Positions 526 to 26,469 of a stretch of 36,753 nt of DNA are shown here, one piece after another. The DNA is from a virus: positions 1 to 36,753 of the IMG/VR virus record IMGVR_UViG_3300043410_000172. One strand, 5' to 3'. Each line of letters begins with the position of its first letter. Within the stretch, counting starts at the first letter, position 1. The position numbers were made by a program, and so were the translations under genes. The notes beneath the pieces were generated by a model. It did not search any database. It saw nothing but the letters and a program-made list of their open reading frames with translations, and was not told the DNA's origin.

Positions 526-554
526 TTGGTTTATTTGTCAAGTTATGCTATAAT
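526..554 (+). promoter_or_regulatory. Sigma-70 promoter with extended -10
   Basis: A perfect -10 box TATAAT lies at 549-554, preceded by TG at 546-547, the extended -10 motif. A weak -35 (TTGGTT, 526-531) lies 17 bp upstream. Transcription would start near 561 and give a leader of about 100 bases before the gene at 664. This is the best promoter in the early region and probably drives the gene cluster to its right. Confidence 0.7.
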
Positions 555-1165: not shown

Positions 1166-1361
1166 GGACAAACAAATCAAAGTCGAAAGACGCGACGTGT
1201 ATGGGGTAACGAAGTACTACCCTGTATGCGACAACGCAAGATTGTTTGCGCGAATAGCCAAAACAATTACGCTCACCCCCGAGGTTTTGAAGCACGCTCA
1301 AAGCCTTGGTTTTTCACTAACGCTTGTTATTTTAACTAAGGAAGATGTATATGAACTTTGA
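1164..1361 (+). CDS. Hypothetical protein, 65 aa
   Basis: A small basic protein with a strong ribosome binding site (AGGAGGG, 1153-1159). The sequence looks like a short strand followed by a helical section (LTPEVLKHAQSLGF). Its 3' end overlaps the start of the next gene by 11 bases. No family is recognised. The start region is embedded in a copy of the dispersed dyad, so this gene may be regulated by whatever recognises it. Confidence 0.65.
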   Translation: MDKQIKVERRDVYGVTKYYPVCDNARLFARIAKTITLTPEVLKHAQSLGFSLTLVILTKEDVYEL

Positions 1362-2274
1362 ACTTCAAACCCCCGAGCATGTGATCAGCCTTGCTTCGTC
1401 AGGCATGATCGTCAATGTAGACGTCAATGTGTGGAGTGCTACTAAGCAAGACCGCGCTATCACTAATGAGGTCATTAACGCATACAAAGCGGATCAGAAC
1501 AGCGGTCGCTTCACTAAGAACTTGTTAGCCAATCATCCCACGCACAAGGCGTTGGTCAATTATCGGCAGACAGTCAGCAACTGGCTTCAGCGTCGCACTT
1601 ACGACTGGCAGGGCGCATTGCGTTATTTGCCCACAGTTTCGATCGAGGTGTTTATGAAGGAATACCGCGAGCATGAGGTCGCGTTCGCTAAATTGATAGA
1701 TGAGTTTGAGGCTCAATACCCAAGCATTGTCTCCGACATGGCGTTCAAGAATGGCGATATGTTTAACAAATCAGACTACCCTGACGTGCAAGAAATCCGT
1801 GGTCGGTTCAAGATCAATCTGTATGTAACAGAAGTACCAACGGCAGACTTTCGCAACAACATTGCGACTGAGATCGCGGAGGACTTGAAGCGCCATTACA
1901 TGAAGCAGGCACAGAGCAAGGTCGATGAGATCATGCAGGACGCCGCGTCACGATTGGTTCTCTATGCAGAGCGGATCTCTTACGCATGCGGTGACAACGA
2001 TGCAGAGTTAACTGACGATGGTAAGAAGAAACGTAAACGCAAGATTTACGACACAACCATTGAGCAGACCAAGGAGTTGTGCAATACGCTACAACATTTC
2101 AACCTAACTAACAACAAGGAGTTAGAGAACGCAAGGGTTGCGTTAGCGGAAGCATTGCGGAACGTAGACGCAGAGGCGTTGCGTGATAGCGATGCAATGC
2201 GTCTGAGCGTCAAGGCTAAAGTGGATGACGTGCTTGAGAAGTTCACTTTAAATACATCATTGTTCGAGGACTGA
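1351..2274 (+). CDS. Unknown 307-aa protein, possibly DUF3150-like
   Basis: The ATG at 1351 is preferred over the one at 1345 because AAGGAAG (1338-1344) is six bases upstream of 1351 but abuts 1345. The protein is helical and charged, with an N-terminal strand segment (MIVNVDVNVWSATKQD), a long central helical part and a Lys/Arg cluster (KKKRKRK, about residue 230). Its place directly before a MoxR-type ATPase and a VWA protein, and the N-terminal pattern ending in a conserved-looking Trp, recall DUF3150 proteins found beside CobS/CobT-like pairs in phages and integrative elements. That assignment is a guess from context and overall pattern. It probably works with the ATPase. Confidence 0.65.
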   Translation: MNFELQTPEHVISLASSGMIVNVDVNVWSATKQDRAITNEVINAYKADQNSGRFTKNLLANHPTHKALVNYRQTVSNWLQRRTYDWQGALRYLPTVSIEVFMKEYREHEVAFAKLIDEFEAQYPSIVSDMAFKNGDMFNKSDYPDVQEIRGRFKINLYVTEVPTADFRNNIATEIAEDLKRHYMKQAQSKVDEIMQDAASRLVLYAERISYACGDNDAELTDDGKKKRKRKIYDTTIEQTKELCNTLQHFNLTNNKELENARVALAEALRNVDAEALRDSDAMRLSVKAKVDDVLEKFTLNTSLFED

Positions 2275-2275
2275 T

Positions 2276-2476
2276 ATGACTGATTTAGAGATTGTTTTAT
2301 TGTGCGCATTTGCGTTCATGGTCTACCTGTATCACAAAGCTATGCTTGCGGTGCGTTACTACAAGTTCGTCCTCGTGGCGATTGGACTCAAGAAGGCTAC
2401 TGTCATTGTTGATGAGAACGATAAGTCGTTCACCATTGACGTTGATTTAAAAGGTCTTGAAAAGCGGATCAGCTGA
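2276..2476 (+). CDS. Small membrane protein, 66 aa
   Basis: Starts one base after the preceding stop. Residues 4-18 form a clear hydrophobic helix (LEIVLLCAFAFMVYLY). A second moderately hydrophobic stretch (residues 28-38) follows, and then a charged C-terminal tail with an IVDENDKSFTIDVDL strand pattern. It is probably membrane-anchored with a cytoplasmic tail. It lies inside the AAA+/VWA cassette, so it could tether that machinery to the membrane; this is inference from position. Confidence 0.65.
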   Translation: MTDLEIVLLCAFAFMVYLYHKAMLAVRYYKFVLVAIGLKKATVIVDENDKSFTIDVDLKGLEKRIS

Positions 2477-2482
2477 TCCTGA
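2467..2482. repeat. TCAG-N6-CTGA dyad, site 4 (gene junction)
   Basis: ATCAG, spacer CTGATC, CTGAT, overlapping a second palindrome, GGATCAGCTGATCC (2466-2479). It covers the stop of the 66-aa gene and lies about 27 bases before the ATPase start. Confidence 0.7.
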
Positions 2483-2508
2483 TTCATTAATTAACTGGGA
2501 GAAAACAA

Positions 2509-3585
2509 ATGGCTAAAGTAAACACAACACCAATGGTGTCAATCGATGAATGTATCAAGTTGGTGAAGCACGTCGGTGCGCATATCACCCCAATGATTAT
2601 GAGTGAGCCTGGGGTTGGCAAGTCATCCATTCTGGAGGCGTTGCGCAAGGACTTGGGTGAGGATGAGTATGACTTCATCTATGTTGACTGTCCTAACAAA
2701 GAGTTGATGGACATTGCTGCTTCTATTCCGAATCATGCATCGAAGTCTCTTGAGTATTATGTGTCTGATCTGTTCAAGCTAGACAATGGCAAGAAGAAGG
2801 TGATCATGCTCGACGAGATGCTCAAAGCACCAAAGATGTTGCAGGTCTTGTTCACTCGCATGGTGCTTGAGCGTTATGTCGGTGATCGTGCGTTGCCTTA
2901 TGGGTCGCTGATGTTTGCTACTTCTAACAATACCACAGATGGTGTGGGTGACAACATGTTGGCGCACGTCGCCAATCGTGTGTGTAAGGTGCAGATGCGC
3001 AAGCCAACTGCTACCGAATGGAATCAATGGGCTGGTGCTAACGGCATTAGTCGTGTGATTCGTTCATGGGTAGCGCGGTATCCCAAGGTCATGGCGTCGT
3101 ACTTGGATGGAGATCAGGAAGACAATCCATATATCTTCAAACCTAGTAGCACTACGAAGCAGTTTGCGTCGCCTCGCTCGTTGGCTCGGGCTGACATTAT
3201 TGTGCGTCAGACTGACCTGATCGGAGAGAACGCAACGATGGTCGCACTTGCGGGTACTGTCGGTGAAGCATGCGCTAGAGATATGGCCGCTTTCTTGGCT
3301 CTTGAGCATAAGGTCGCGGATGTAAAGGACATCATTAAGTCTCCAATGACTATTGATTGTCCAAACGATGATGTGTCAGCGTTGCTGTTGATCATGTTCC
3401 AAGCGATTGACGTTGTGGAAGATCACGATGAGTTGAGTAAGTTCATGCAGTTCGTTGACCGAATCAAATCATCAGAGGTGCAGTCTATCTTCTTTACGAT
3501 GATGTTGCGTAGCAAGACCAAGCTTGCTCGTCACAACGATCGCATCAAGAAGTGGGCTATCGATAACTATGACTTAATGACTTAA
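2509..3585 (+). CDS. MoxR/CobS-type AAA+ ATPase
   Basis: A 358-aa ATPase with Walker A EPGVGKSS (residues 33-40, Lys38), Walker B VIMLDE (98-103, Asp102/Glu103), a sensor-1-like ATSNN (137-141) and an arginine-finger-like NRV (156-158). The short helical lid and the LDE ending fit MoxR/CobS-type AAA+ proteins, which partner with VWA-domain proteins as remodelling chaperones. The ATG has GGGAGAA upstream. The gene lies 17 bases before the VWA partner, a classic pairing. In phages such pairs have no settled role; remodelling of host or phage complexes, or countering defence, is possible. Confidence 0.9.
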   Translation: MAKVNTTPMVSIDECIKLVKHVGAHITPMIMSEPGVGKSSILEALRKDLGEDEYDFIYVDCPNKELMDIAASIPNHASKSLEYYVSDLFKLDNGKKKVIMLDEMLKAPKMLQVLFTRMVLERYVGDRALPYGSLMFATSNNTTDGVGDNMLAHVANRVCKVQMRKPTATEWNQWAGANGISRVIRSWVARYPKVMASYLDGDQEDNPYIFKPSSTTKQFASPRSLARADIIVRQTDLIGENATMVALAGTVGEACARDMAAFLALEHKVADVKDIIKSPMTIDCPNDDVSALLLIMFQAIDVVEDHDELSKFMQFVDRIKSSEVQSIFFTMMLRSKTKLARHNDRIKKWAIDNYDLMT

Positions 3586-3602
3586 TAAGAAGGAGAGAAG
3601 CT

Positions 3603-4847
3603 ATGACTATCAATGCAGAGACAAGGCTCAAGAGAAGCCATATCAAGCTGATGAAGAGCAAGCATACCGCCCTGTATTCAGGTGTGATCATGCTAGGCGA
3701 ATCGTCTATCGAGGAGAAGGTCGCTACCGCATACACCGATGGTGTGAACAAGCGATATGGTCGCAAGTTCATGGATGCTCTGAGTGATCCCGAGCATAAC
3801 GCAGTCGTGTTGCACGAGAACCTGCATGTGGGATTGAAACATCTACCGCATCATAGGTCTAAGTGGAAAGAGAACAAGAAGCTAGCCAATGTCGCGGCTG
3901 ACCTCGTTGTTAACTCAATCATCAAGGAGATCGAGTTGAAAGACCCGAACCTTGTGACCTTGCCTAAGTGCGCTATCTATAGTCCACAGTTTAAGGATTG
4001 GTCGTTCAACGAAGTCTACAACTTCCTCAAGCAGAAAAGCGGAGGCGGTGGGAATGGTGACGACGATGGTAAGGGCAAAGGTAATGCGTCAGGGGGGTCT
4101 GATCCGCAAGATGGCGACGATGGTGGTAACGACTATGGTGAAGGCTTCGACGAGCATGACATGAGTGGCGATGGTCAGGAGTTGTCTGAGCAAGAAGCCA
4201 AAGACCTCGACGAGCGTATCGACAAAGCGTTGCGTGAAGGTGGCATCCTTGCAGGCAGTATGGGTGGTGATACACCTAGAGCAATCCAAGAGTTGCTTGA
4301 ACCCAAGGTTGATTGGCGTGAAGCATTGCGCGAGTTCATCTCTGAGTTCTCTGTCGGTAAGGATGAGTACACATGGCGCAAGTTCAATCGTCGTATGTTA
4401 CCTAACGATCTGTATCTGCCTAGCACAATCAGCGAGACAGTCGGTGAGTTGGTGGTTGCGATCGACACATCAGGCTCTATCGGTAGCGTGGAGTTGTCAG
4501 AGTTTGCTTCTGAATTGGCAAGCATATGCGAAACAGTCACACCGAGCGGAGTCCGAGTGCTTTGGTGGGACACTATGGTTGCAGGCGAGCAGAAGTTCAC
4601 CGAAGGTGAGTATCAACAACTGGCATCAATGTTAAAGCCCAAGGGCGGTGGGGGAACTAAGGTGTCAGCCGTAGCTGATTACATAAAGAAGAAAAACATC
4701 AACGCAGAAGCGGTGATCGTGTTCACCGACGGATATGTTGAGAGTGATATCAAGTGGGATATCTCTACGCCAACTCTGTGGTTAATCACACATAACAAAT
4801 CGTTAACAGTCCCAAGCGGACACAAGAAACTTATGAAGGAAGACTGA
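3603..4847 (+). CDS. DUF2201-type metallopeptidase/VWA protein
   Basis: This 414-aa protein has three parts. Residues about 1-145 carry a zinc-protease-like HENLH motif (71-75). Residues 147-190 are a Gly/Asp-rich low-complexity linker. Residues about 235-400 form a VWA-like domain with a MIDAS set: DTSGS (Asp288, Ser290, Ser292), the Thr of GGGGT (352) and Asp376 in FTDG. An N-terminal predicted peptidase joined to a VWA domain is the DUF2201 architecture. The AAGGAGAG site before the ATG is strong. Its direct neighbour is the MoxR-like ATPase, so the two probably form one complex: the ATPase remodels and the VWA protein recruits a metal-dependent ligand. Actual proteolysis is not shown. Confidence 0.88.
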   Translation: MTINAETRLKRSHIKLMKSKHTALYSGVIMLGESSIEEKVATAYTDGVNKRYGRKFMDALSDPEHNAVVLHENLHVGLKHLPHHRSKWKENKKLANVAADLVVNSIIKEIELKDPNLVTLPKCAIYSPQFKDWSFNEVYNFLKQKSGGGGNGDDDGKGKGNASGGSDPQDGDDGGNDYGEGFDEHDMSGDGQELSEQEAKDLDERIDKALREGGILAGSMGGDTPRAIQELLEPKVDWREALREFISEFSVGKDEYTWRKFNRRMLPNDLYLPSTISETVGELVVAIDTSGSIGSVELSEFASELASICETVTPSGVRVLWWDTMVAGEQKFTEGEYQQLASMLKPKGGGGTKVSAVADYIKKKNINAEAVIVFTDGYVESDIKWDISTPTLWLITHNKSLTVPSGHKKLMKED

Positions 4848-4848
4848 C

Positions 4849-5901
4849 ATGTTTGATGATATCGTTGGAAAGATCAATTACAAATCCCTTGACTCCAAGA
4901 GACATAGTGTTCGCCCGATTCGGGGACATAATGCGTATCCGATTGGCGATCGGAAATACAGCGCAAGGCACTTCGTTCCAAGAGACGATGGGTCTTACGA
5001 GTTGTGGTATTGGAATCTTAGTTCCAAGAGTGTCACTAGGGAAACCAATGCGGAGAAGTTGTCACCCCTTGCGATTGTCCATCCTGACAATACGATTGAG
5101 ATCGTTACGACAAGACCGATGTATCAGTCGGACTATTGGATGCTCAACAGTGGTCTGCGCAATGCCCCCTCATGGGGGAGTCGTACTGATCTAAACCCTA
5201 CACTTGCCACGTCTGTGAAGTATGGCGGTGTGTATGCGGGTTACAGAGGTAATCGTGTCTTGCCTGTGTTTGAAGGTATGCGTTGGAATTTGGATACTGG
5301 CAAGTTCCATGATGACCATGCGTTCAAAGTCAACAAGTGGGTGGTGGATCGCAAACTGTCTAACGCTATCCGTAGCAGATACGCAGACGACATTAAGTAC
5401 TGCAGGGTCGTGGTGCGTCAGTTTGACGAGAAGTCGTTTACCAAATTCATTGCAGGCATAGTCAATGATGCCGAGAGTTTCGTTAAACCATACTTGGACA
5501 GACAAGGTCTAGACATGCACTATGCACATGGCATGGCGTGGGACAGACTTAACTGGGGAGATACCGGAAAGAAACTAGAGCGTGTGCGAGAGAAGACAAG
5601 GCCGTATGTCATGGACATGGCGAGTAAGGATCTGCTTGGCGCACTCTATACCTATGCGATGTACAAAGGTATTAGTGGCATCTCGCGCATTCACCACAAC
5701 CCATCGTGGGTGATGCGCAGGCTGATGGAGTCGGGAGACTTTGAGTTTGAATTGATCTTGAATAAGTTCTTCTACGAGTTGATCGAGGAAGAAGATGCGT
5801 TCAAGGCGGTGACCTACGATTGCAATGATCCCGAGGCATCGCTGAGTAAGTGGGGGTGTGCCATTGAATTGGCAAATGGTTCTATTGTTCAACAACTGTA
5901 A
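4849..5901 (+). CDS. Unknown protein of the AAA+/VWA cassette, 350 aa
   Basis: Starts one base after the VWA gene's stop, so it is translationally linked to it. The N-terminal third is strand-rich and basic (SVRPIRGHNAYPIGDRKYS, residues about 20-38), followed by a YELWYWN stretch. The C-terminal half is helical and rich in charged and aromatic residues. No known fold or catalytic motif is recognised. Conserved placement beside the ATPase/VWA pair would make it a candidate substrate or adaptor of that complex. Confidence 0.75.
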   Translation: MFDDIVGKINYKSLDSKRHSVRPIRGHNAYPIGDRKYSARHFVPRDDGSYELWYWNLSSKSVTRETNAEKLSPLAIVHPDNTIEIVTTRPMYQSDYWMLNSGLRNAPSWGSRTDLNPTLATSVKYGGVYAGYRGNRVLPVFEGMRWNLDTGKFHDDHAFKVNKWVVDRKLSNAIRSRYADDIKYCRVVVRQFDEKSFTKFIAGIVNDAESFVKPYLDRQGLDMHYAHGMAWDRLNWGDTGKKLERVREKTRPYVMDMASKDLLGALYTYAMYKGISGISRIHHNPSWVMRRLMESGDFEFELILNKFFYELIEEEDAFKAVTYDCNDPEASLSKWGCAIELANGSIVQQL

Positions 5902-5911
5902 GGAGAGAGAT

Positions 5912-6820
5912 ATGTATTACGAACACGCAAAGAAGTTAGAGATCGAAGCTTTTCTTGCTGATCAGCCCAAGCTGATGCACTTAGTAGCGGAGACTAATCA
6001 CAAGCTAGGTCTGCAAGCTTTCAACGTGGCAGAGTTACCCTCGTTCAAGTGGAATGCCAAGCGTGACAAAGGTATCCGCATGGTAACGCCCAAGGGTATC
6101 TATGCCGCAGATGTATTCTTACGCGAGGATGAAGACGAGGATAGAGACGAGAAGTCGTTTGCTATCTATTCACCCAACATCAATCGCTCTCGTATACCAA
6201 GAGTTATGGATAGGGAATTCGCACATACCCGAGTGTCTGCAAAGTTGTCCTCATTGTTCACCGCGCTCAAGAAGGTGGGCGAGAATGTTGAAGACACTAA
6301 GTATCTGAACGAGCATCTCAAGAGACAGAGCCGTCAACTTTTGCAAGTGGTTGCTAATAAGAAACACATGCCCAATAGATTGAGCGATGCGTATGACGAA
6401 TTTAAATTATTAAACTTCGCATTGGGTATTGACACAAACTTGACAATCTCAGATACTGATCGCTATAGAAAGATTAGAGCAGAATTGGAGATAGAGATGA
6501 AGCAAGCTATCGATAACGCTAGCGACTACCATAACTTCGCTGAGTCAATTGACGTACTGTGTCCGCTTGAGTACGGCTACTATTTGACGCAAGCCCGAGG
6601 CGATGGAACTCAGCAACTGGTATTAGAGTCAGAGCCTCAGTTCATTCCAAATCTCGACAATCATCCCGACCTGAAGGTTGCGATGCTCATGGTTCAAGAG
6701 ATGGAGACCGCACATGGTAAGTCTTACAACTATATGCACTTCAAAGATCTAGGCGTCGCCAAAGCAAACCGAGGTGGTAGAGGACTTGATATCCCTGTAT
6801 TACTGATCAGCAAAGCCTGA
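5912..6820 (+). CDS. Unknown protein of the AAA+/VWA cassette, 302 aa
   Basis: The frame is open further upstream, but the ATG at 5912 is chosen because AGGAGAGAG (5901-5909) lies directly before it and the upstream part overlaps the previous gene. The protein has an acidic patch (REDEDEDRDE, about residues 78-87), a helical middle and a C-terminal HGKSYNYMHFKDL segment. No family is recognised. Two copies of the dispersed dyad touch this gene, one near the start (5961-5976) and one at its stop (6806-6821). Confidence 0.75.
   Translation: MYYEHAKKLEIEAFLADQPKLMHLVAETNHKLGLQAFNVAELPSFKWNAKRDKGIRMVTPKGIYAADVFLREDEDEDRDEKSFAIYSPNINRSRIPRVMDREFAHTRVSAKLSSLFTALKKVGENVEDTKYLNEHLKRQSRQLLQVVANKKHMPNRLSDAYDEFKLLNFALGIDTNLTISDTDRYRKIRAELEIEMKQAIDNASDYHNFAESIDVLCPLEYGYYLTQARGDGTQQLVLESEPQFIPNLDNHPDLKVAMLMVQEMETAHGKSYNYMHFKDLGVAKANRGGRGLDIPVLLISKA
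5961..5976. repeat. TCAG-N6-CTGA dyad, site 5 (perfect)
   Basis: ATCAG, spacer CCCAAG, CTGAT, about 50 bases into the 302-aa gene. The left half is itself part of a GCTGATCAGC palindrome (5957-5966). Confidence 0.7.
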
Positions 6821-6821
6821 C

Positions 6822-7214
6822 ATGTTATTAACAGCGGTAACACATTCAAAGAAACTCGATCATTATCGTGTTCCGGTTCTAGTGTTTGATCGCGGGGAGG
6901 TGTATGAGGTATTCATTGGCGACACCATGATTCTCAGGTACGACAGAGAAAGACTGCCGACCTGTATCAAAGAAAGAATCGCAATGATTAACGCTATACC
7001 CGCGCCCGATCATGTAATACGAGAACGCAGCACGATGACATTTACAACCGATATCTATACCAATACGCATGACCCGCGTCTTAACGATATTGGCTGGCAG
7101 TGGGCTAATGATGCTTATGTGGTAGTTATATCAGAGAAGGAGGTAGATGAATTGAAAGGTGATCTAGTCCCAATGCACGAATCAAGAATGGCTTATGAGT
7201 ACGCCCGAAGTTAA
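6822..7214 (+). CDS. Hypothetical protein, 130 aa
   Basis: Begins one base after the previous stop, so it is likely translated by coupling. It has a strand-rich N-terminus (YRVPVLVFDRGEVYEVFIGD, about residues 15-34) and a C-terminal segment with several Trp, Tyr and Val residues. No recognised domain. Its end overlaps the start of the VRR-NUC gene by 20 bases, which links it to the next block of the operon. Confidence 0.65.
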   Translation: MLLTAVTHSKKLDHYRVPVLVFDRGEVYEVFIGDTMILRYDRERLPTCIKERIAMINAIPAPDHVIRERSTMTFTTDIYTNTHDPRLNDIGWQWANDAYVVVISEKEVDELKGDLVPMHESRMAYEYARS

Positions 7215-7488
7215 AGTTAAGAAAGTCGTGAGCCAAGCATTGAAAGAGATGCAGGCTTACGTCGTAAAGCCCGTGACAGGTGGATTTGGCAATTCAGGTG
7301 TGCCTGATCTATTAGTTTGTGTCTCAGGTAGATTCGTTGGTATCGAGTGCAAGGCGCAAGGCAACAAGCCAACCGCTTTGCAACTTCACAACTTGAATGC
7401 CATTGAGTTAGCCGGAGGCATATCGCTCGTCATTGACGAGTCCAACATGCATTTAGTTAAACAACTTATAGGAGATAGACTGAAATGA
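7195..7488 (+). CDS. VRR-NUC domain nuclease, 97 aa
   Basis: A minimal VRR-NUC fold of the PD-(D/E)XK superfamily. The catalytic set is visible as GNSGVPDLL (Asp38), IECKAQG (Glu51, Lys53) and Gln63. Stand-alone phage VRR-NUC proteins are predicted structure-selective DNA nucleases that act on replication or recombination intermediates. The length is typical of the single-domain phage form. The start overlaps the preceding gene and has no strong ribosome binding site, so coupling is likely. The family call is confident; the substrate is inferred from relatives. Confidence 0.88.
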   Translation: MSTPEVKVKKVVSQALKEMQAYVVKPVTGGFGNSGVPDLLVCVSGRFVGIECKAQGNKPTALQLHNLNAIELAGGISLVIDESNMHLVKQLIGDRLK

Positions 7489-9492: not shown

Positions 9493-9518
9493 AGCAGGGG
9501 CTAGCCCCTGCTTTTTTT
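9493..9518 (+). terminator. Strong intrinsic terminator before DNA polymerase
   Basis: A perfect 20-base palindrome (9493-9512) with eight or more GC-rich pairs and a tiny CTAG centre is followed by seven T residues (9512-9518). It ends the DUF3310 transcript. The T-run is immediately followed by GGAG, the ribosome binding site of DNA polymerase, so polymerase mRNA must come from read-through or processing at this point. No U-run faces the minus strand, so it acts rightward only. Confidence 0.9.
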
Positions 9519-18936: not shown

Positions 18937-19096
18937 TCAGATGCAAGTGGGGCAGAGTTTCTTTATACCGACTCTGCGCCCTGCATACATGCTGTACGCA
19001 ATACAGAATGGCGCTAAGCGCGAGGGTATAGGCGTCAAAGTGTACAAGACAACCGAGGATGGATTCCTCGGTGTCCGTGCATGGCGTATCAATTAG
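18869..19096 (+). CDS. Hypothetical protein, 75 aa, last rightward gene
   Basis: Overlaps the end of the primase-helicase gene by 68 bases in another frame; GGAG lies nine bases before the ATG. The N-terminus is Pro/Lys/Glu-rich (MSKKKSPPEAPPLEEPEW), followed by strands that end in a Gly/Val/Arg/Trp pattern (GFLGVRAWRIN). The pattern is seen in small phage proteins of unknown function. Its TAG (19094-19096) overlaps the TAA of the opposing 2458-aa gene. Confidence 0.65.
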   Translation: MSKKKSPPEAPPLEEPEWIFPFSQMQVGQSFFIPTLRPAYMLYAIQNGAKREGIGVKVYKTTEDGFLGVRAWRIN

Positions 19097-22000
19097 GGCT
19101 TTATGTCAAGCGATGCAAACTCATTCAGGATGCCTCGCTTGACAATGTTTTCGCCTAGCGTCAGGTAGCGTAGCATCTGCGACCGTTCTGCCTGTGTAAG
19201 TTCCTGCATCCTGCGCACAGTGTTCTTCTGCTCTTGGAACTCTTTGAGAGTGCCGTTGATTGCAGAGTTGTAGTGCTCAACAATGAACTCATGCGTAGGA
19301 TTCTTAGACAAGTACTTAGCGTAACGCTCTGGGTCATCCTTCAGAGTCTTGATTGTGCTGGAAATATCTTTAATCTCCTTAGACACTTTTGCAAACTCTC
19401 GGGCGTCGACGTTAGACACTGCACCAAAGAATCGGTCAAACAGGATCGTGTCGGTGCGGGGGTCAAACTCTTTGTTGCCGACCATACCCTGTGCAACATT
19501 GACGCCGTTGTGCATCACCCGGGCCAGGCCGTCTGCGTAGTTGTTAGCAAAAAAATACATTACGTTAGGTGACACAGGTACACCGGTAATATCGTACAGC
19601 ATTTTTGCTGCACCTTTGTACAACTCAGGCACATTGTCGCCACCGACAAACACCTCACTTACTCGGCTCTTCTGAGCGTTGTAAATGTCACGACCCAGCG
19701 CGTCTGTATTCATCGCGTACTCAATCATGGGGCGCAGGATAGAGGGGGCAAAAGTATCTGCCAACCACTCGGCAGGCTTCTCGTATTTGTCAATTCTAGA
19801 CACCGGTACGGGCAAGAATGAGTCCTGTGCAACCTCCATGATGTTGCTTAGCATACCGAAGAAACTGCGATCTCCCTCTGGGCGCATGACTGCGCCATGT
19901 GCGTAGCCTGCCATTTGAGCGCCAGCAGAAGCAAACGCGCCAAGACCGAAGCCCCAAGGCAGTTGGAATACAAAGTCTCTGTCGCCCACACGGAAGTGGA
20001 ACCGTGCATAGCGGGTGTAACGAGCCATGTCATCAGTCACTGCTTTATTGCGACCCAAATCGTCATCGCCACCAGCAACCGCGCCCATCGCATAGACCAT
20101 CATGCCCATGCCAATCAGACCACCAACAACTGCACGGGCGTGCTTCTGACGTTTGTCGTGTTCCTTCTTGTACTTCTCAACGGCTTCAGGGTTTTTGTAG
20201 ACCCGCTCACCATCTTTGAACTCGTAGGCGTATGTACCCTGATTAGGTAGCATCTTCACGGCCTTGTCTGCACTGACAAATGCGGGAGCCAAAGCCTCGA
20301 TTGCACGCACTGCACCTGTAGCGGCGGGGCGGAAGAACATGAACATAGCGCCCATAGCCTGACCCCACTCACCGACCTGTTCAAAGTTTGCTAAGTTTTT
20401 GCCATCACCTACGGCCTTTTGCGTTGCCTCCGCTTCGTCCATACCTTTCTTCATGTACTGCTCTTTGAGTACACGGTATGCAGCTACGCGGCTAGCCAAT
20501 TCAAAAGAGTCAGACCACATGTCAATGACTTTATCCGCACCTTTTTTGGTTTTGATAAAGACGTTATTGCCCTTGACGTCTGCTTCAAAGTCTTCAGCCA
20601 AACCTTCGGCAGTCAAGCTCTTAATGTAGGAAACCTTACCGCCAGCATTTACATAATCATTGAGATCTCTAAAGTCGGGATCCGTCTTTGCAAGGCGCTC
20701 GATCTCACCAAACTTCTTAGCTGTGTAGAGCGCAGAGAACTTACCGGCTTTGTACAAGCCGCCATGAAGAACCTGCTGACCGATCAACTGCTTCAGGTAG
20801 TTAGCGCCAATGCCCCAGCCTTCTTTAGCAGCTATGTTGAATGTATTAGTTAATCCATCAATCAAGAAGTTAGCCGGCGCAAATGGGATGTTGTAGCGGG
20901 TGTGCATCTGCCCAAAGAAGCTTGTCGCAGAGTTAAGCACGCTCACCACGGGGTTTGATTCGCGGTACGTTCTGCGGATAGCTTCACGCAAATGTGGGTC
21001 ATCAATGGTGATAACCGTAATAGTTCCATCAGGCTCGTAGTGGAAGATCGCGTTCTTGCCACGCAACTTAGCAACGTCTACGTCACCTTTGTATCGGTCT
21101 TCAAACTTAATCTTAAGTTTTGTTGAACCCTTGATCATGCCGGAGTCAACGGCGTTCTTAAGCGCCAGCGTCAAGCCCTGTGCATCTACACCACTGCGAC
21201 CAGCGCGAGCTGCGGCATGTGTTGCATCAAGCATTGCCTGAACAATTACGTTGTTTGAATCAGAGATACGACCTTCAAAAGTGTTCTGTGCTTCCTGCAG
21301 TTCTCTACCAGCGCCTGTGCGCACGTCAAACTGATCGTCAATTACTTTATTGGCACGGCCCTTGAACGGCACATAGTGTTTGAAGTCATACAGCTTAACG
21401 ACGTTATCCACTGGCTGCGACCAATAGTTTGCCTTCTTATTCAGCTCAACGGTCTTGTCCTCAAGCTTTTGAATCTTCTCAAGGATTGCATCCACTTCAG
21501 CTTTGTACTTATAGTTCTTGTACTCGTCATAAGCGGCTTGGCGTGAAGGCAAGTCATAGTTAGCAATCACGTTGTACTGAGTGCTCTGCTCATCAGCAGA
21601 AGTATAGACTGCGCCCTTAGTTCCAATCTGGGATGGTGCGGCAGGATCAGTAGTCCATGAGTAGCCGTTTACAGCGTCAAGGTTTCCGCCTTGGCTTGTT
21701 GGCTTTGCAAACTTCTCAAGCTCTGCGCGGTAGCCTTTGATCTCGGCTTCAGTCATCTTATCACCCTTGCGGAACTTCTGGATGATCTCTCCGCGACGTG
21801 TAGCAGACGCTAGGTCAAGGGGCGCGTAGAACAAGAACTTAATGTGACGACGCTCACGCTCGTGCAATGTGCGACCAAAGACGTGCATCGTCTTCAACGT
21901 GCGGTCAAAGTCTACGCCAGCTTTGTCAGCCAGCTTCTGCATCATGTCGTGGATAGACTGAATGTCCTGCTCAAGTTCGCGCTCGTATATGTTACGCGCA

Positions 22001-25000
22001 CGGCCTGTGGACATTGTGATCTCGTTGTACACAGCATTAATCTTCTCGCCCGCGTAGATAACCTTGTTAGCCATTTCCTCTGCGGCTTCCCATGCTTTGA
22101 TCGCATGGCGGTTGTTTGCGAAGCGACGAATGATCTCCCTGCCACCCTCTGCGGTTGTGAAGAGTTTATACAGGTTTTGCTTTGTCCTTGGCATCTGCGA
22201 GCCGGGTGCGGTATCGACTTGATCTTCAAACGTAGCAGTAGTCTCGGTCTTTGGTTGATTCTTAGGCCCTGCGGGTTTAGCTGGCGCAGGTGTAGCGGCT
22301 GTAGTTGTTGGCGGCGTTGGTGGTGTTGGGGGCGCAGCGGCGCTTCCTTGCGTTGCCAATACTGGGACTTCTTCTACAGCTTCGGGCGCAACCATGATGT
22401 CGTTAAAAGCCGCGGCAGCTTCTATCAGCAAGTTACCTTTATAACCGGGCTGCGTATAGATATCTTTACGCAGGTTAGTGATACCACCTTTAGTAATGGT
22501 CGCACCGACACGAGCTTCCATACCCGGAAGCAGGCTATCCATAGTTTCGTTAAACGGAATGCTCTTAACGCCAGCAAGGGCGGCTTCGCCTTCGCTAATG
22601 CCTTCGTCAAAAGCTGACTCTTCGTCTTTGATGGCCTCGTCAGCGCCTGTGAGCAATGCAATCTCATCAGGTAGGGGCGGCCCCTTCTCTTGCATCCGTT
22701 CAATGAACGCTTCATCCGCTTCTGTTATCTTGTCCCTTGCACCTTTGGGCAGCGCCTGCACGCCTGTAGTAACGCTTCTGTCGCCGTACTTCTCAACGGG
22801 AACTAGATAGCCAGCCTTTCTCTTGCTAGGCGTAAAAGCCTTGTAGATGTAGGCGAGGGTTGTAGTGAATGCATCCCATATAGTCTTACCTGTGGGGAAC
22901 TCATAGTCACGCAGTACTTGTCCTACTCGGGCGCCTCGGGCGCGGCTTGTAGCGCGGACTGCATCATCTAGCTGTATCTTGACAAGTTCATTCTGGAACT
23001 TTAGATCAGTCATTGAGTACGCAACGAACTCATACAGATTCTTAAATGCCGCTGGGAACTTCTTACCCAGTCTGCTTTGAGACAAAGCAAAAATTGTTTG
23101 CAAGTGCTCAACACCCTTGCGCTGTCTTTCAGTTAAGACAGACGGATCTCTAAAGAACTGACGAATGATCTTGGCCGTAACTGCATGTGTTAATTCATGC
23201 AAAAATGCGGTCTCTGTAAACCCAAACGGGCCAAACGTCATTGTGTTTGTTTTGGGGTCGTACTTAGCCAGACCTTCTTTGGGATCAAGGTTTTCGTCAA
23301 TTACTACATTAATCTTAGTGTCACCAATCGTAGACAGTAGGGACTCGGCAAGGTTGCGATAAACCTTTGAACTCATCTCACGAGAGACACGAATCAGTTG
23401 CCCTGCAAGACTACCCTCACGCACCAACGTGCCACGCTTGTATTTAAGGCGCTCTTCGGCAGTTTTAACTGCCTCTCTAACGGCTTTCTCAATATCAACT
23501 GGATCTTTACTAAGAACCTTATTAACTAATACACCATCCCGTTGTAACTTTTTACGTTTGTTATCAGCAACAAGTTTTAGATACTCTTCTTGTTTAACTT
23601 TTTGCTTTTTAATCTCTGCTTTGGTAACACCCACACGGGTGAGAGGCGCAGTCTTAGCGCCACGAGCGTTATCTGACAACCATTGAAGAACACCTTTAAC
23701 ATCGCCATCATATAAACGACGAACCATTTGCGCAGTTAACGCATCGCCTTGGCTCTTAGGATCGTTCTCAATCATTGCCTCAGTTGCAGCGTGCATCTGC
23801 GCAATCAAATCTTCTTTAGCTTGCTGCTCTCTCTGACGCTTTTCTTCAGCCTCTGACTGAGAAAACTTTGTTTCTGTTTTGCGTATCTTGCGGAAAGCGA
23901 GCTCTTGTTCTGCAGGGCTGCCTCGCTGCACTGTGTCACGGTATACCTGTTTGTTTTCTTCAGACAAGCTGTTCCAGTTGGGCAACGTGCTTGGCTTGTT
24001 CTGCTCGTATTCGTGCTGAGTCTCAAATTCTTTTTGAGTTTGTTTCTCGGCAGCTTTTGCCGCGGCTTCTGTCTCTTCTTTGGAAGCACCATTACGCTTG
24101 GCTTCATTACGCGCCTTCTTACGCGCTTCGCGTTGAGCTTCAAGCAGATCGGCGCGGTACTCTAGCAGACGCTGAGTAGCCTTAATGTGTTCTGATACGC
24201 TGTTGCCAAACTTTGCAGCTTGACCGCCAAAGTAGATACCCTTTTCGTAGGGTGTTAAATCGCTAAACGAAGGCAGTTTAAGCAAGCTGCCTAATTGTTC
24301 CGTGACAAACTTCTTGTCATCTTCAATATCTTCTTCAGTAGCGTTGGGTAATTCACCCTGCTCACTAATCAGATCCTCTGCAATCTGTTTAGTAGACTGT
24401 TCAATATTTTCAGAATGCGCTTGGCGTTGCTCGTCATACAGTTTGCGCTCGTCTTCACTCAGAGCATACAAACCCTCGCGCTTTTGTTGACGTAACTCAT
24501 CAACAGTCTTTTGCAAATCTTCATCGGTCTGACCCGCAACTGATGCCTTGTCTGACAACTCTTGGAATGCGCCGCGTTGAGCAGCTGGCGCTTTTTCTTT
24601 TGCCCGCTCTTTCAGTGTGTCAACGTCGTTCCAGAAGCGGTTGTCGTCAAACCCAGCGTCAGAGGCGTAGTCAGCGAGGTCAAGTTTAAATCTACCAGCA
24701 GCGGCTTTAATTTCTGCGGCTTGCAAGTCAGTGTAGAAGCGGTCTTCGTCAAGGCCGGCTTGCGTGATGTAGCTGTCGTAGTCAAGCCCGTACCACTTTG
24801 CTTGCTGACGCTCTTCCTGTTCAATTGGATCTTCAGCGCCGATCGGCAGATCCGCGGGATCTATTTTCTGCTGCTTACGTCTGTTGCGTAGGGATTGCGC
24901 TTGGCTTCCCTTCGTTTGAACATTTACTGCAGGGGGCTGTCCTCCTGCTCCTGTAGGAGGCTTTCCAACATCCGACTCAGGAGAAACCACTCCATCTCTT

Positions 25001-26469
25001 GGAGGTGTCGCAGCTCCTTCGGTATCGGTTCCGGTAGTGGATTGTAGATCCACGCCAGCGCCTTCTCCACCTGTTGATTCGATAGGTTTTGTAGCATTTA
25101 CACCCCCTGCGGCAGTCAGTCCTTCGATACGTTTAACAAGGTTGTCTCTTGCTGTAACAATGTTTTTATGGAAAGGGCTAGAGGTATTTCCACTTGTTTC
25201 GTTTTTGTTAATGGTTTCGTTGTACTGCTCCAGAATACCACTAAGTTCATCTAAGTTAGTACTGCTCTTAGCAATCTGGCTACGAGACTGTTTTTTAACC
25301 GCTTCTTTAATTGCGTTGGGTTTTTGTTCAACCTGCTCAGTAGCTTGTCCACCCTGTTGAATTACGTCAAGCGCATCGGCTTCTTCAGCAGTTTTCTTAA
25401 CTTCAGCAGCCTCTTTGCCACCACCGCTAGCGATACCTGCCGCACCGCCCATACCTACAGCGCCAAGCGTAGCCTGAGCTGCAGTCTCACCAAAGCCTTC
25501 AGTAAGTGCTTGTTTAGGATTAACTTGACGCATCGCCAAGTTCTGCAGTGCGCGACCACCAACCTCTTCAATGTTCTCACCGGGGGTTTCTTTAACCGCG
25601 CCAAGGAGTGCACCCGTGATACGACCCATGCCTGTTTTCTCACCAGCCAGCGCACGTTCAAACGCTTGCGAACCGGGAAGTTTTTGAGCTAACAATGACA
25701 GAGCCGCACCGCCAAGACCAGCGGCACGAGCGTAATTAATCGTTGCATCTGCCGCCTCTTTCTCACCCATCTTCTGTTCTTCGGTGAGATACTTATACAT
25801 GGCTTCGTAAGTACCTGTACCTACATCTGCGCCCTGCTGAACTGCGGCAGTTCTCACCGCAGACTTTGCGCCTAAATCAACAGCGGCTTTCTTAGCAGCG
25901 GCTTCGGCTTCTTGTTTGGCTACGCCAGCCGCGGCCTTTTGTGCGGCGGTGCGCAGTGCAGCGACTTCAGCGGAAGCAGCGGGAGTACCAATAGCTGCAA
26001 GAGCAGCGGGTAGTTGTTGTGGTAATTGCTCAGCAAAGAAGTTAGCTAGCAGTGCGGGGTCAGAAACAGTTTGACCGATTGAGGCTTTAAAGGCTTCCCA
26101 CTCGCCCTTCTTCTGTGCTTCTTGTACAGCACGTTGCGCAGCCGCTTCCCTTGCTTTAAGGCCAGCAGACTTTAATCCCTTGCCGTATTCCTCAAGTTCT
26201 TGAGCCGCGCCATAGATACCAGTTTTTGAGAAGTCTCCCGTAGCCAATCCGTAAAGTTGACCGGGAAATTGACCGAGGCTACCCAAGCCGGAAAGCAAGC
26301 CAGCACCTACGTCACTGACTGCTTCGCCCATAGTACGCTCTTTAGCCCTTGCCTCAACCCGCGGCATCTCCCGCGCCATCATCTGTTGAGCTTGCTCTGG
26401 CGTAGTGCCCTCTGGTACTTCAAACCGAGCAATTCGGCCATCAGGCATTTCAAAGCGTGCTATTGGCAT
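19093..26469 (-). CDS. Giant virion-associated polyvalent protein with HELTH metalloprotease motif, 2458 aa
   Basis: This is the largest gene in the window. The first 30 residues repeat a short strand motif (PDGRIARFEVPEG). Residues about 120-350 are Ala/Gly-rich with hydrophobic helices. A long charged coiled-coil part follows. A zinc-protease motif HELTH lies at residues 1091-1095. Residues 1376-1412 are a Pro/Thr-rich linker. A hydrophobic segment (VVGGLIGMGMMVYAMGAVAG) lies at about 2113-2134. The C-terminal 700 residues recall the large polyvalent protein-associated domains of phage ejection proteins (LPD38-like; inference). Its position, last in the virion block, matches T7 gp16, so it may be injected with the DNA. 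It starts three bases after the 702-aa gene. Confidence 0.8.
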   Translation of the reverse strand: MPIARFEMPDGRIARFEVPEGTTPEQAQQMMAREMPRVEARAKERTMGEAVSDVGAGLLSGLGSLGQFPGQLYGLATGDFSKTGIYGAAQELEEYGKGLKSAGLKAREAAAQRAVQEAQKKGEWEAFKASIGQTVSDPALLANFFAEQLPQQLPAALAAIGTPAASAEVAALRTAAQKAAAGVAKQEAEAAAKKAAVDLGAKSAVRTAAVQQGADVGTGTYEAMYKYLTEEQKMGEKEAADATINYARAAGLGGAALSLLAQKLPGSQAFERALAGEKTGMGRITGALLGAVKETPGENIEEVGGRALQNLAMRQVNPKQALTEGFGETAAQATLGAVGMGGAAGIASGGGKEAAEVKKTAEEADALDVIQQGGQATEQVEQKPNAIKEAVKKQSRSQIAKSSTNLDELSGILEQYNETINKNETSGNTSSPFHKNIVTARDNLVKRIEGLTAAGGVNATKPIESTGGEGAGVDLQSTTGTDTEGAATPPRDGVVSPESDVGKPPTGAGGQPPAVNVQTKGSQAQSLRNRRKQQKIDPADLPIGAEDPIEQEERQQAKWYGLDYDSYITQAGLDEDRFYTDLQAAEIKAAAGRFKLDLADYASDAGFDDNRFWNDVDTLKERAKEKAPAAQRGAFQELSDKASVAGQTDEDLQKTVDELRQQKREGLYALSEDERKLYDEQRQAHSENIEQSTKQIAEDLISEQGELPNATEEDIEDDKKFVTEQLGSLLKLPSFSDLTPYEKGIYFGGQAAKFGNSVSEHIKATQRLLEYRADLLEAQREARKKARNEAKRNGASKEETEAAAKAAEKQTQKEFETQHEYEQNKPSTLPNWNSLSEENKQVYRDTVQRGSPAEQELAFRKIRKTETKFSQSEAEEKRQREQQAKEDLIAQMHAATEAMIENDPKSQGDALTAQMVRRLYDGDVKGVLQWLSDNARGAKTAPLTRVGVTKAEIKKQKVKQEEYLKLVADNKRKKLQRDGVLVNKVLSKDPVDIEKAVREAVKTAEERLKYKRGTLVREGSLAGQLIRVSREMSSKVYRNLAESLLSTIGDTKINVVIDENLDPKEGLAKYDPKTNTMTFGPFGFTETAFLHELTHAVTAKIIRQFFRDPSVLTERQRKGVEHLQTIFALSQSRLGKKFPAAFKNLYEFVAYSMTDLKFQNELVKIQLDDAVRATSRARGARVGQVLRDYEFPTGKTIWDAFTTTLAYIYKAFTPSKRKAGYLVPVEKYGDRSVTTGVQALPKGARDKITEADEAFIERMQEKGPPLPDEIALLTGADEAIKDEESAFDEGISEGEAALAGVKSIPFNETMDSLLPGMEARVGATITKGGITNLRKDIYTQPGYKGNLLIEAAAAFNDIMVAPEAVEEVPVLATQGSAAAPPTPPTPPTTTAATPAPAKPAGPKNQPKTETTATFEDQVDTAPGSQMPRTKQNLYKLFTTAEGGREIIRRFANNRHAIKAWEAAEEMANKVIYAGEKINAVYNEITMSTGRARNIYERELEQDIQSIHDMMQKLADKAGVDFDRTLKTMHVFGRTLHERERRHIKFLFYAPLDLASATRRGEIIQKFRKGDKMTEAEIKGYRAELEKFAKPTSQGGNLDAVNGYSWTTDPAAPSQIGTKGAVYTSADEQSTQYNVIANYDLPSRQAAYDEYKNYKYKAEVDAILEKIQKLEDKTVELNKKANYWSQPVDNVVKLYDFKHYVPFKGRANKVIDDQFDVRTGAGRELQEAQNTFEGRISDSNNVIVQAMLDATHAAARAGRSGVDAQGLTLALKNAVDSGMIKGSTKLKIKFEDRYKGDVDVAKLRGKNAIFHYEPDGTITVITIDDPHLREAIRRTYRESNPVVSVLNSATSFFGQMHTRYNIPFAPANFLIDGLTNTFNIAAKEGWGIGANYLKQLIGQQVLHGGLYKAGKFSALYTAKKFGEIERLAKTDPDFRDLNDYVNAGGKVSYIKSLTAEGLAEDFEADVKGNNVFIKTKKGADKVIDMWSDSFELASRVAAYRVLKEQYMKKGMDEAEATQKAVGDGKNLANFEQVGEWGQAMGAMFMFFRPAATGAVRAIEALAPAFVSADKAVKMLPNQGTYAYEFKDGERVYKNPEAVEKYKKEHDKRQKHARAVVGGLIGMGMMVYAMGAVAGGDDDLGRNKAVTDDMARYTRYARFHFRVGDRDFVFQLPWGFGLGAFASAGAQMAGYAHGAVMRPEGDRSFFGMLSNIMEVAQDSFLPVPVSRIDKYEKPAEWLADTFAPSILRPMIEYAMNTDALGRDIYNAQKSRVSEVFVGGDNVPELYKGAAKMLYDITGVPVSPNVMYFFANNYADGLARVMHNGVNVAQGMVGNKEFDPRTDTILFDRFFGAVSNVDAREFAKVSKEIKDISSTIKTLKDDPERYAKYLSKNPTHEFIVEHYNSAINGTLKEFQEQKNTVRRMQELTQAERSQMLRYLTLGENIVKRGILNEFASLDIKP

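Follow-up and report, generated by a model that had tools for sequence, protein, structure and literature searches.

What is the role of a phage-encoded MoxR-type AAA+ ATPase and a metallopeptidase-VWA protein that lie, together with five further genes, at one locus of a freshwater tailed phage? In known MoxR-VWA machines, a target is captured via the MIDAS of the VWA partner and changed at the cost of ATP. The DNA analysed here (the window) is a virus record of 36,753 bases, a 36.7-kb fragment of the phage genome; a near-identity search of deposited phage DNA matched no close relative. On the plus strand, the replication side of the window runs from small early open reading frames (ORFs) through the cassette to genes for a DUF3310 protein, a family-A DNA polymerase, an exonuclease, a helicase, and a primase/helicase-like protein. 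The virion genes lie to the right of these, on the minus strand.

Seven ORFs occupy positions 1351-7214 of the plus strand, where the initial annotation had placed them. Gene A (1351-2274, 307 aa) belongs to the DUF3150 family; gene B (2276-2476, 66 aa) has one predicted N-terminal membrane segment; gene C (2509-3585, 358 aa) encodes the MoxR/midasin-type AAA+ ATPase; and gene D (3603-4847, 414 aa) encodes the DUF2201 protein, in which an HExxH zincin-like domain is joined through a glycine-rich linker to a VWA domain with a full MIDAS. Genes E (4849-5901, 350 aa) and F (5912-6820, 302 aa), both fast-diverging, and G (6822-7214, 130 aa) have no assigned family. Gene H (7195-7488, 97 aa), which overlaps G by 20 bases, encodes a small nuclease similar to the phrog_93 "endonuclease." The genes are closely packed, with gaps of 1 (A-B), 32 (B-C), 17 (C-D), 1 (D-E), about 10 (E-F), and 1 (F-G) bases. 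The start of gene A at 1351, and hence its length of 307 aa, agrees with the invariant first methionine of its family, and the ATG of gene F at 5912 is preceded by AAGGAGA.

Upstream, the only copy in the window of the extended -10 pattern TGnTATAAT (546-554, plus strand) is a candidate early promoter for the host RNA polymerase, by pattern match. Between it and gene A, a consensus scan found a terminator-like hairpin (1279-1309, plus strand; 12 pairs followed by TTTTT), whose role as a terminator is unsure because it lies inside a 65-aa ORF (1164-1361). The cassette had been described as standing right after the main early promoter, which is loosely correct, except that three small genes and this hairpin separate the 546-554 motif from gene A.

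Gene C appears to encode an intact motor. Its whole length aligns with phrog_1297 (ATPase; 3.5e-53), and its family profile, compared with solved structures in the PDB, has midasin as the best match (1.6e-18) and ClpE as the next (1.1e-9), which places its nearest relatives in the helix-2-insert (MoxR/midasin) clade. The predicted Walker A lysine K38, Walker B residues D102 and E103, sensor-1 residue N140, and arginines R157 and R223 are invariant in all 62 viral members of the family and nearly so in 72 bacterial ones.

The evidence for gene D is of the same kind. It matches the Pfam families DUF2201_N (1.7e-29; 103.7 bits, cut-off 23.2) and DUF2201 VWA (7.3e-18; 65.3 bits, cut-off 26.4), as well as phrog_1314 (1.5e-85). 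Across about 145 viral and bacterial members, plasmid-borne ones included, H71-E72-x-x-H75, D100, and the MIDAS residues D288, S290, S292, T352, and D376 are essentially invariant. The putative zinc site would comprise two histidines and an aspartate, with E72 as the catalytic glutamate, the third ligand being proposed from its invariance. D is thus a predicted peptidase whose HExxH(+D) site is intact and whose MIDAS is complete. Yet this family carries the name "HNH endonuclease" in phrog_1314 and several RefSeq records, a label that covers window positions 3603-4847, N4 gp25 (L060:6165-7307), LIT1 gp35 (L056:7971-9197), and phage G gp576 (L061:6001-7179). It appears to be a propagated error, because an HNH domain match is absent from Pfam searches and the motif is HExxH, accompanied by a VWA domain, as in DUF2201.

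An AAA+ ATPase paired with a VWA/MIDAS protein also recalls the cobST pairs that are widespread in tailed viruses; these have been proposed to boost cobalamin synthesis via the host CobN, and cobT, according to the same authors, is often misannotated as a peptidase (PMC8651126). C and D would then be CobST-like subunits. However, neither has a chelatase, CobS, or CobT family match in NCBIfam or in Pfam, the solved structures nearest to C in the PDB profile search do not include CobS, and D matches DUF2201, with its invariant HExxH, in place of CobT. The proposal would also leave A, E, F, and G unexplained. We regard a cobalamin role as highly improbable, because chelatase family matches are lacking.

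The partners are less familiar. The window copy of A by itself falls below the threshold for PF11348 (DUF3150), but 12 of 25 aligned family members match it (best 3.4e-8) and a tblastn comparison connects A with an annotated DUF3150 protein (5e-13); by this family evidence A is a DUF3150 protein. Its structural model (pLDDT 81, pTM 0.49) has an alpha/beta N-terminal part and two long helices; a fold search of the PDB gave no usable match, and a profile search against solved structures was unconvincing. B retains its single hydrophobic N-terminal segment, as judged by hydropathy, across 34 copies, although its position varies between the A-C and the C-D gap. For E (model pLDDT 84, pTM 0.75), the PDB fold search found nothing resembling it, and the matches in BFVD were a few phage proteins without names and weak hits to DUF8033; profile comparison ruled out E as a homologue of F, G, or A. 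No convincing family was found for E, F, or G in Pfam, PHROG, NCBIfam, PADLOC, or the PDB. H matches phrog_93 (4e-16) and is of VRR-NUC type by motif. The Pfam, PHROG, and family-profile results bear out the gene identities first proposed from the sequence: a MoxR-type ATPase, a DUF2201 metallopeptidase-VWA protein, a DUF3150-like protein, a membrane protein, and three proteins without an assigned family.

The initial annotation had named conservation of the neighborhood in related genomes as a test of its cassette, and the gene set proves nearly invariant across related contigs. A scan seeded with D yielded 54 viral contigs, and in nearly all of those that reach far enough the order is A-(B)-C-D-E-F-G-H. 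In a second scan, seeded with A and partly overlapping the first, counts were taken from contigs long enough to tell: C was present in 64 of 64, D in 58 of 58, E in 53 of 54, F in 46 of 46, G in 37 of 42, and H, which almost always adjoins the cassette, in 41 of 42. The order A-C-D-E-F-G-H is essentially invariant in the related contigs sampled with A. The set belongs to the replication-side strand, where its neighbors are genes for a nuclease, an exonuclease, a helicase, and the DNA polymerase.

This setting raises the possibility that the cassette supports the replication or recombination complex of the phage itself, by loading or unloading a polymerase, helicase, or nuclease, with no host target. 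The constant linkage to the H nuclease, polA, and the exonuclease argues for it, as does the fact that, in several other phages, related pairs are linked to genes for a polymerase or helicase. But the argument is one of gene linkage, in a region shared by many early-function genes, and a changing external target fits the fast-diverging partners described below better. We hold this reading as a tentative one, with a modest chance of being correct.

The related contigs also share virion genes. A 620-aa virion protein is common to 17 of the 20 longer ones, and all 20 have the polymerase and a terminase-like match; from these shared features the contigs form one phage group. Since both polymerase and virion genes are shared throughout the group, co-occurrence cannot separate a replication or host role from a virion role. 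The latter is the main published alternative. For group 2.2 jumbo phages, in which the same MoxR AAA+ ATPase is paired with a vWA domain fused to an N-terminal metallopeptidase, participation in virion assembly has been proposed (Iyer et al. 2021, PMC7824862), by which C and D would act as a chaperone-protease that folds, assembles, or processes structural proteins. The MoxR-VWA pair of the Acidianus two-tailed virus offers an analogy, RPP1 virion proteins are encoded near homologues of N4 gp24 and gp25 (PMC4193335), and cyanophage S-TIM61 has a virion protein gene two genes after the pair. In the present phage, however, virion genes are encoded on the strand opposite the cassette, which is firmly tied to replication genes. 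The jumbo-phage paper does not mention DUF3150 in its text, whereas the window pair sits within a replication-side set of seven genes.

The distribution of the genes beyond the group bears further on this alternative. Among 50,697 phage records, 795 contain relatives of D and 486 relatives of C, including N4-like, V5-like, jumbo, and cyanophage genomes, and the pair spans very different virion types. Of 86 loci from bacterial genomes and further phages and plasmids, 78 have C and D in one stretch; in 77 of these the two share a strand, and they are mostly adjacent. A departure from the usual same-strand order is a locus of the phage V5 type (L145), in which the ATPase lies near a D-like protein on the opposite strand. 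In LIT1, XC38, V5, and Rhizobium phage TM27A, genes for a polymerase or a RecD-like helicase lie close to the pair. A joins C-D in 11 loci, several of them bacterial or prophage contigs, and is found before, between, or after the pair. In two of the contigs (L065 and L078) the trio lies, as judged by eye, near ORFs resembling family-A polymerase and exonuclease genes. In cyanophage MinM2, MoxR, DUF3150, and VWA genes lie within 4.5 kb, the DUF3150 protein being a true A; and a conjugative Paraburkholderia plasmid, which makes no virion, carries a MoxR-DUF3150-like-VWA trio. Recurrence of the trio with its genes rearranged argues more strongly for a working unit than a single inherited order would. 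Because of the strand arrangement, the replication-side linkage, and the plasmid trio, virion assembly fits less well; we regard it as possible but rather unlikely.

Two further DUF3150 loci deserve mention. A Manganitrophus plasmid (L144) encodes a DUF3150 protein with DUF1257 and DUF2997 proteins and a larger AAA ATPase, in a stretch from which D is absent, so DUF3150 may serve other AAA+ machines as well. Three cyanophage records (OQ594354, OL906435, and PP438419; L057), listed with different hosts, are each 65,014 bases long and have DUF3150 proteins that are 100% identical; they are probably one phage under three names.

The best-known relatives of C and D are gp24 (ATPase) and gp25 (VWA) of phage N4, which are homologous to them in both genes (profile E values 1e-100 and 4e-106) and share the same motifs. 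In a tree of D, the window clade is sister to the sampled N4-type gp25 proteins (SH-aLRT 98), a placement to be read with caution given several long branches; the aligned N4-type members are only 19%-31% identical to the window C and D. The gp24/gp25 pair belongs to the core genes of the Schitoviridae and is transcribed in the middle class, not late (PMC4193335), which likewise speaks against virion assembly. Unlike the window cassette, the regions in N4, LIT1, XC38, and SABI have no detectable DUF3150, E, F, or G. Profile comparison of the genes neighboring the pair in N4, LIT1, XC38, SABI, phage G, and MinM2 revealed no hidden A, B, E, F, or G, save the DUF3150 protein of MinM2; SABI_43, alone among these neighbors, resembles C. 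A is not obligatory, since C-D is retained in N4-like phages where none of A, E, F, and G could be detected. N4 RNAP2 was found in none of 15 related contigs (the N4 control was positive), and no RNA_pol match rose above the cut-off, so that a phage RNA polymerase was not found in them. The Schitoviridae are marked by this RNAP2 and by a giant virion RNAP; judged by the RNAP2 test, the phage group is not part of that family.

That phage versions of the MoxR-VWA pair have no settled function, as had been stated at the outset, agrees with the literature searched, in which we found no experiment on the function of gp24 or gp25; the roles suggested at the outset (host takeover, anti-defense, or remodeling of host complexes) are conjectural, and what the initial annotation had missed is the N4 core pair itself and the virion-assembly proposal for jumbo phages.

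The genes of the cassette evolve at different rates. Measured against their closest relatives, A, C, and polA have a dN/dS of 0.04-0.06, D of 0.12-0.17, E and F of 0.16-0.23, and B of 0.26-0.31. A and C are thus constrained like the DNA polymerase, and B, E, and F have values three to six times higher. Since the order is fixed in 50-60 related contigs and every gene has a dN/dS far below 1, the cassette is not a chance assembly. In three of four comparisons, E has a dS of about 1.27 whereas A, C, and D have values of 0.32-0.51, as if alleles had been exchanged. The pattern resembles that of a core under constraint whose partners diverge or undergo exchange, although the fast divergence of E and F may reflect relaxed constraint instead of adaptation.

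Such a pattern invites comparison with conflict systems. In the MoxR-vWA ternary systems (Kaur et al. 2020, PMC7159879), a MoxR ATPase, a vWA protein, and a third constant component are accompanied by diversifying partners, sometimes peptidases, much as in the cassette. These are systems of bacterial defense, and in place of DUF3150 they have VMAP, iSTAND, FtsH, or a beta-propeller as the third component; Pfam scans of the cassette families found none of the four, beyond a VMAP-M1 match (E 0.094) in one member of A. MoxR-VWA pairs are at the heart of bacterial conflict systems, some of which include peptidase effectors (PMC7159879; PMC12839542), and this, with the fast divergence of B, E, and F and the exchange-like dS, is consistent with counter-defense or superinfection exclusion, in which the machine and its diversifying partners would recognize and inactivate a defense component or a competing phage. 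A PADLOC search, however, gave no convincing match, and near-universal presence in the group, together with core status of the pair in the Schitoviridae, points to a standing role and not an optional one. We therefore consider this explanation doubtful.

The account that we favor, by a slight preference, is that the cassette encodes a MoxR-VWA remodeling machine that has a metallopeptidase of its own and works within the infected cell during the early or middle phase. The invariance of the motifs in C and D, midasin as the nearest solved relative, the fixed gene order, the A-C-D trio, the split in dN/dS, and the polymerase/helicase linkage all point this way. C would form a ring, and the MIDAS of D would bind an acidic residue of the target and dock it on that ring, as CbbO does for CbbQ; for CbbQO, binding of a substrate carboxylate by the MIDAS is supported by mutation (PMC4660213). 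The long helices of A may bridge or stabilize the C-D complex, a guess given the low pTM of the model (0.49). B could tether the machine to the membrane, and E, F, and G, as adaptors, substrates, or regulators, would adjust it to a changing target. ATP hydrolysis would drive remodeling of the target, which might also be cleaved at the HExxH site of D. The likeliest targets would be host proteins, for takeover or to neutralize a host complex, followed by the replication complex of the phage itself. The early or middle timing is suggested by gene position, the lone extended -10 motif at 546-554, and the middle class of N4 gp24/gp25.

Bacterial CbbQ-CbbO and RavA-ViaA likewise combine a MoxR ATPase with a VWA partner; their targets are metabolic or respiratory, and the portions of the published accounts considered here mention neither an HExxH domain nor DUF3150. 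The C-D pair is thus already known, from N4 gp24/gp25 and from hundreds of other phages, jumbo phages among them. DUF3150 as the third core gene and the four attached partner families are new: no description of the seven-gene arrangement with DUF3150, E, F, and G turned up in the open-access literature searched, where a search on DUF3150 returned no paper. A bolder reading, which we offer as speculative, is that MoxR, DUF3150, and zincin/VWA constitute a previously unrecognized ternary machine of phages and plasmids, with exchanging partners (B, E, F, and G) that would aim the core at host complexes: a retargetable unfoldase-peptidase for host takeover or counter-defense. The target question is tractable, because the constant partners can serve as baits for complex reconstitution and pull-down. 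The cassette would, in addition, point to a function for DUF3150 and set right the misleading "HNH endonuclease" label.

Some features of the phage genome outside the cassette may be added. In a related contig of 70,742 bases (L020, record G007), polA is present at both ends; since the two copies are 63,877 bases apart, the complete genome is probably about 64 kb, circular or permuted, and the contig extends beyond one full length of it. Immediately ahead of the DNA polymerase gene in the window is a strong terminator-like hairpin (9493-9512; eight pairs, six of them GC, then TTTTTT). The virion-side strand encodes a 2,458-aa protein (19093-26469, minus strand) with an HELTH motif of the HExxH type, possibly a large internal virion protein or a polyvalent protein with a peptidase domain.
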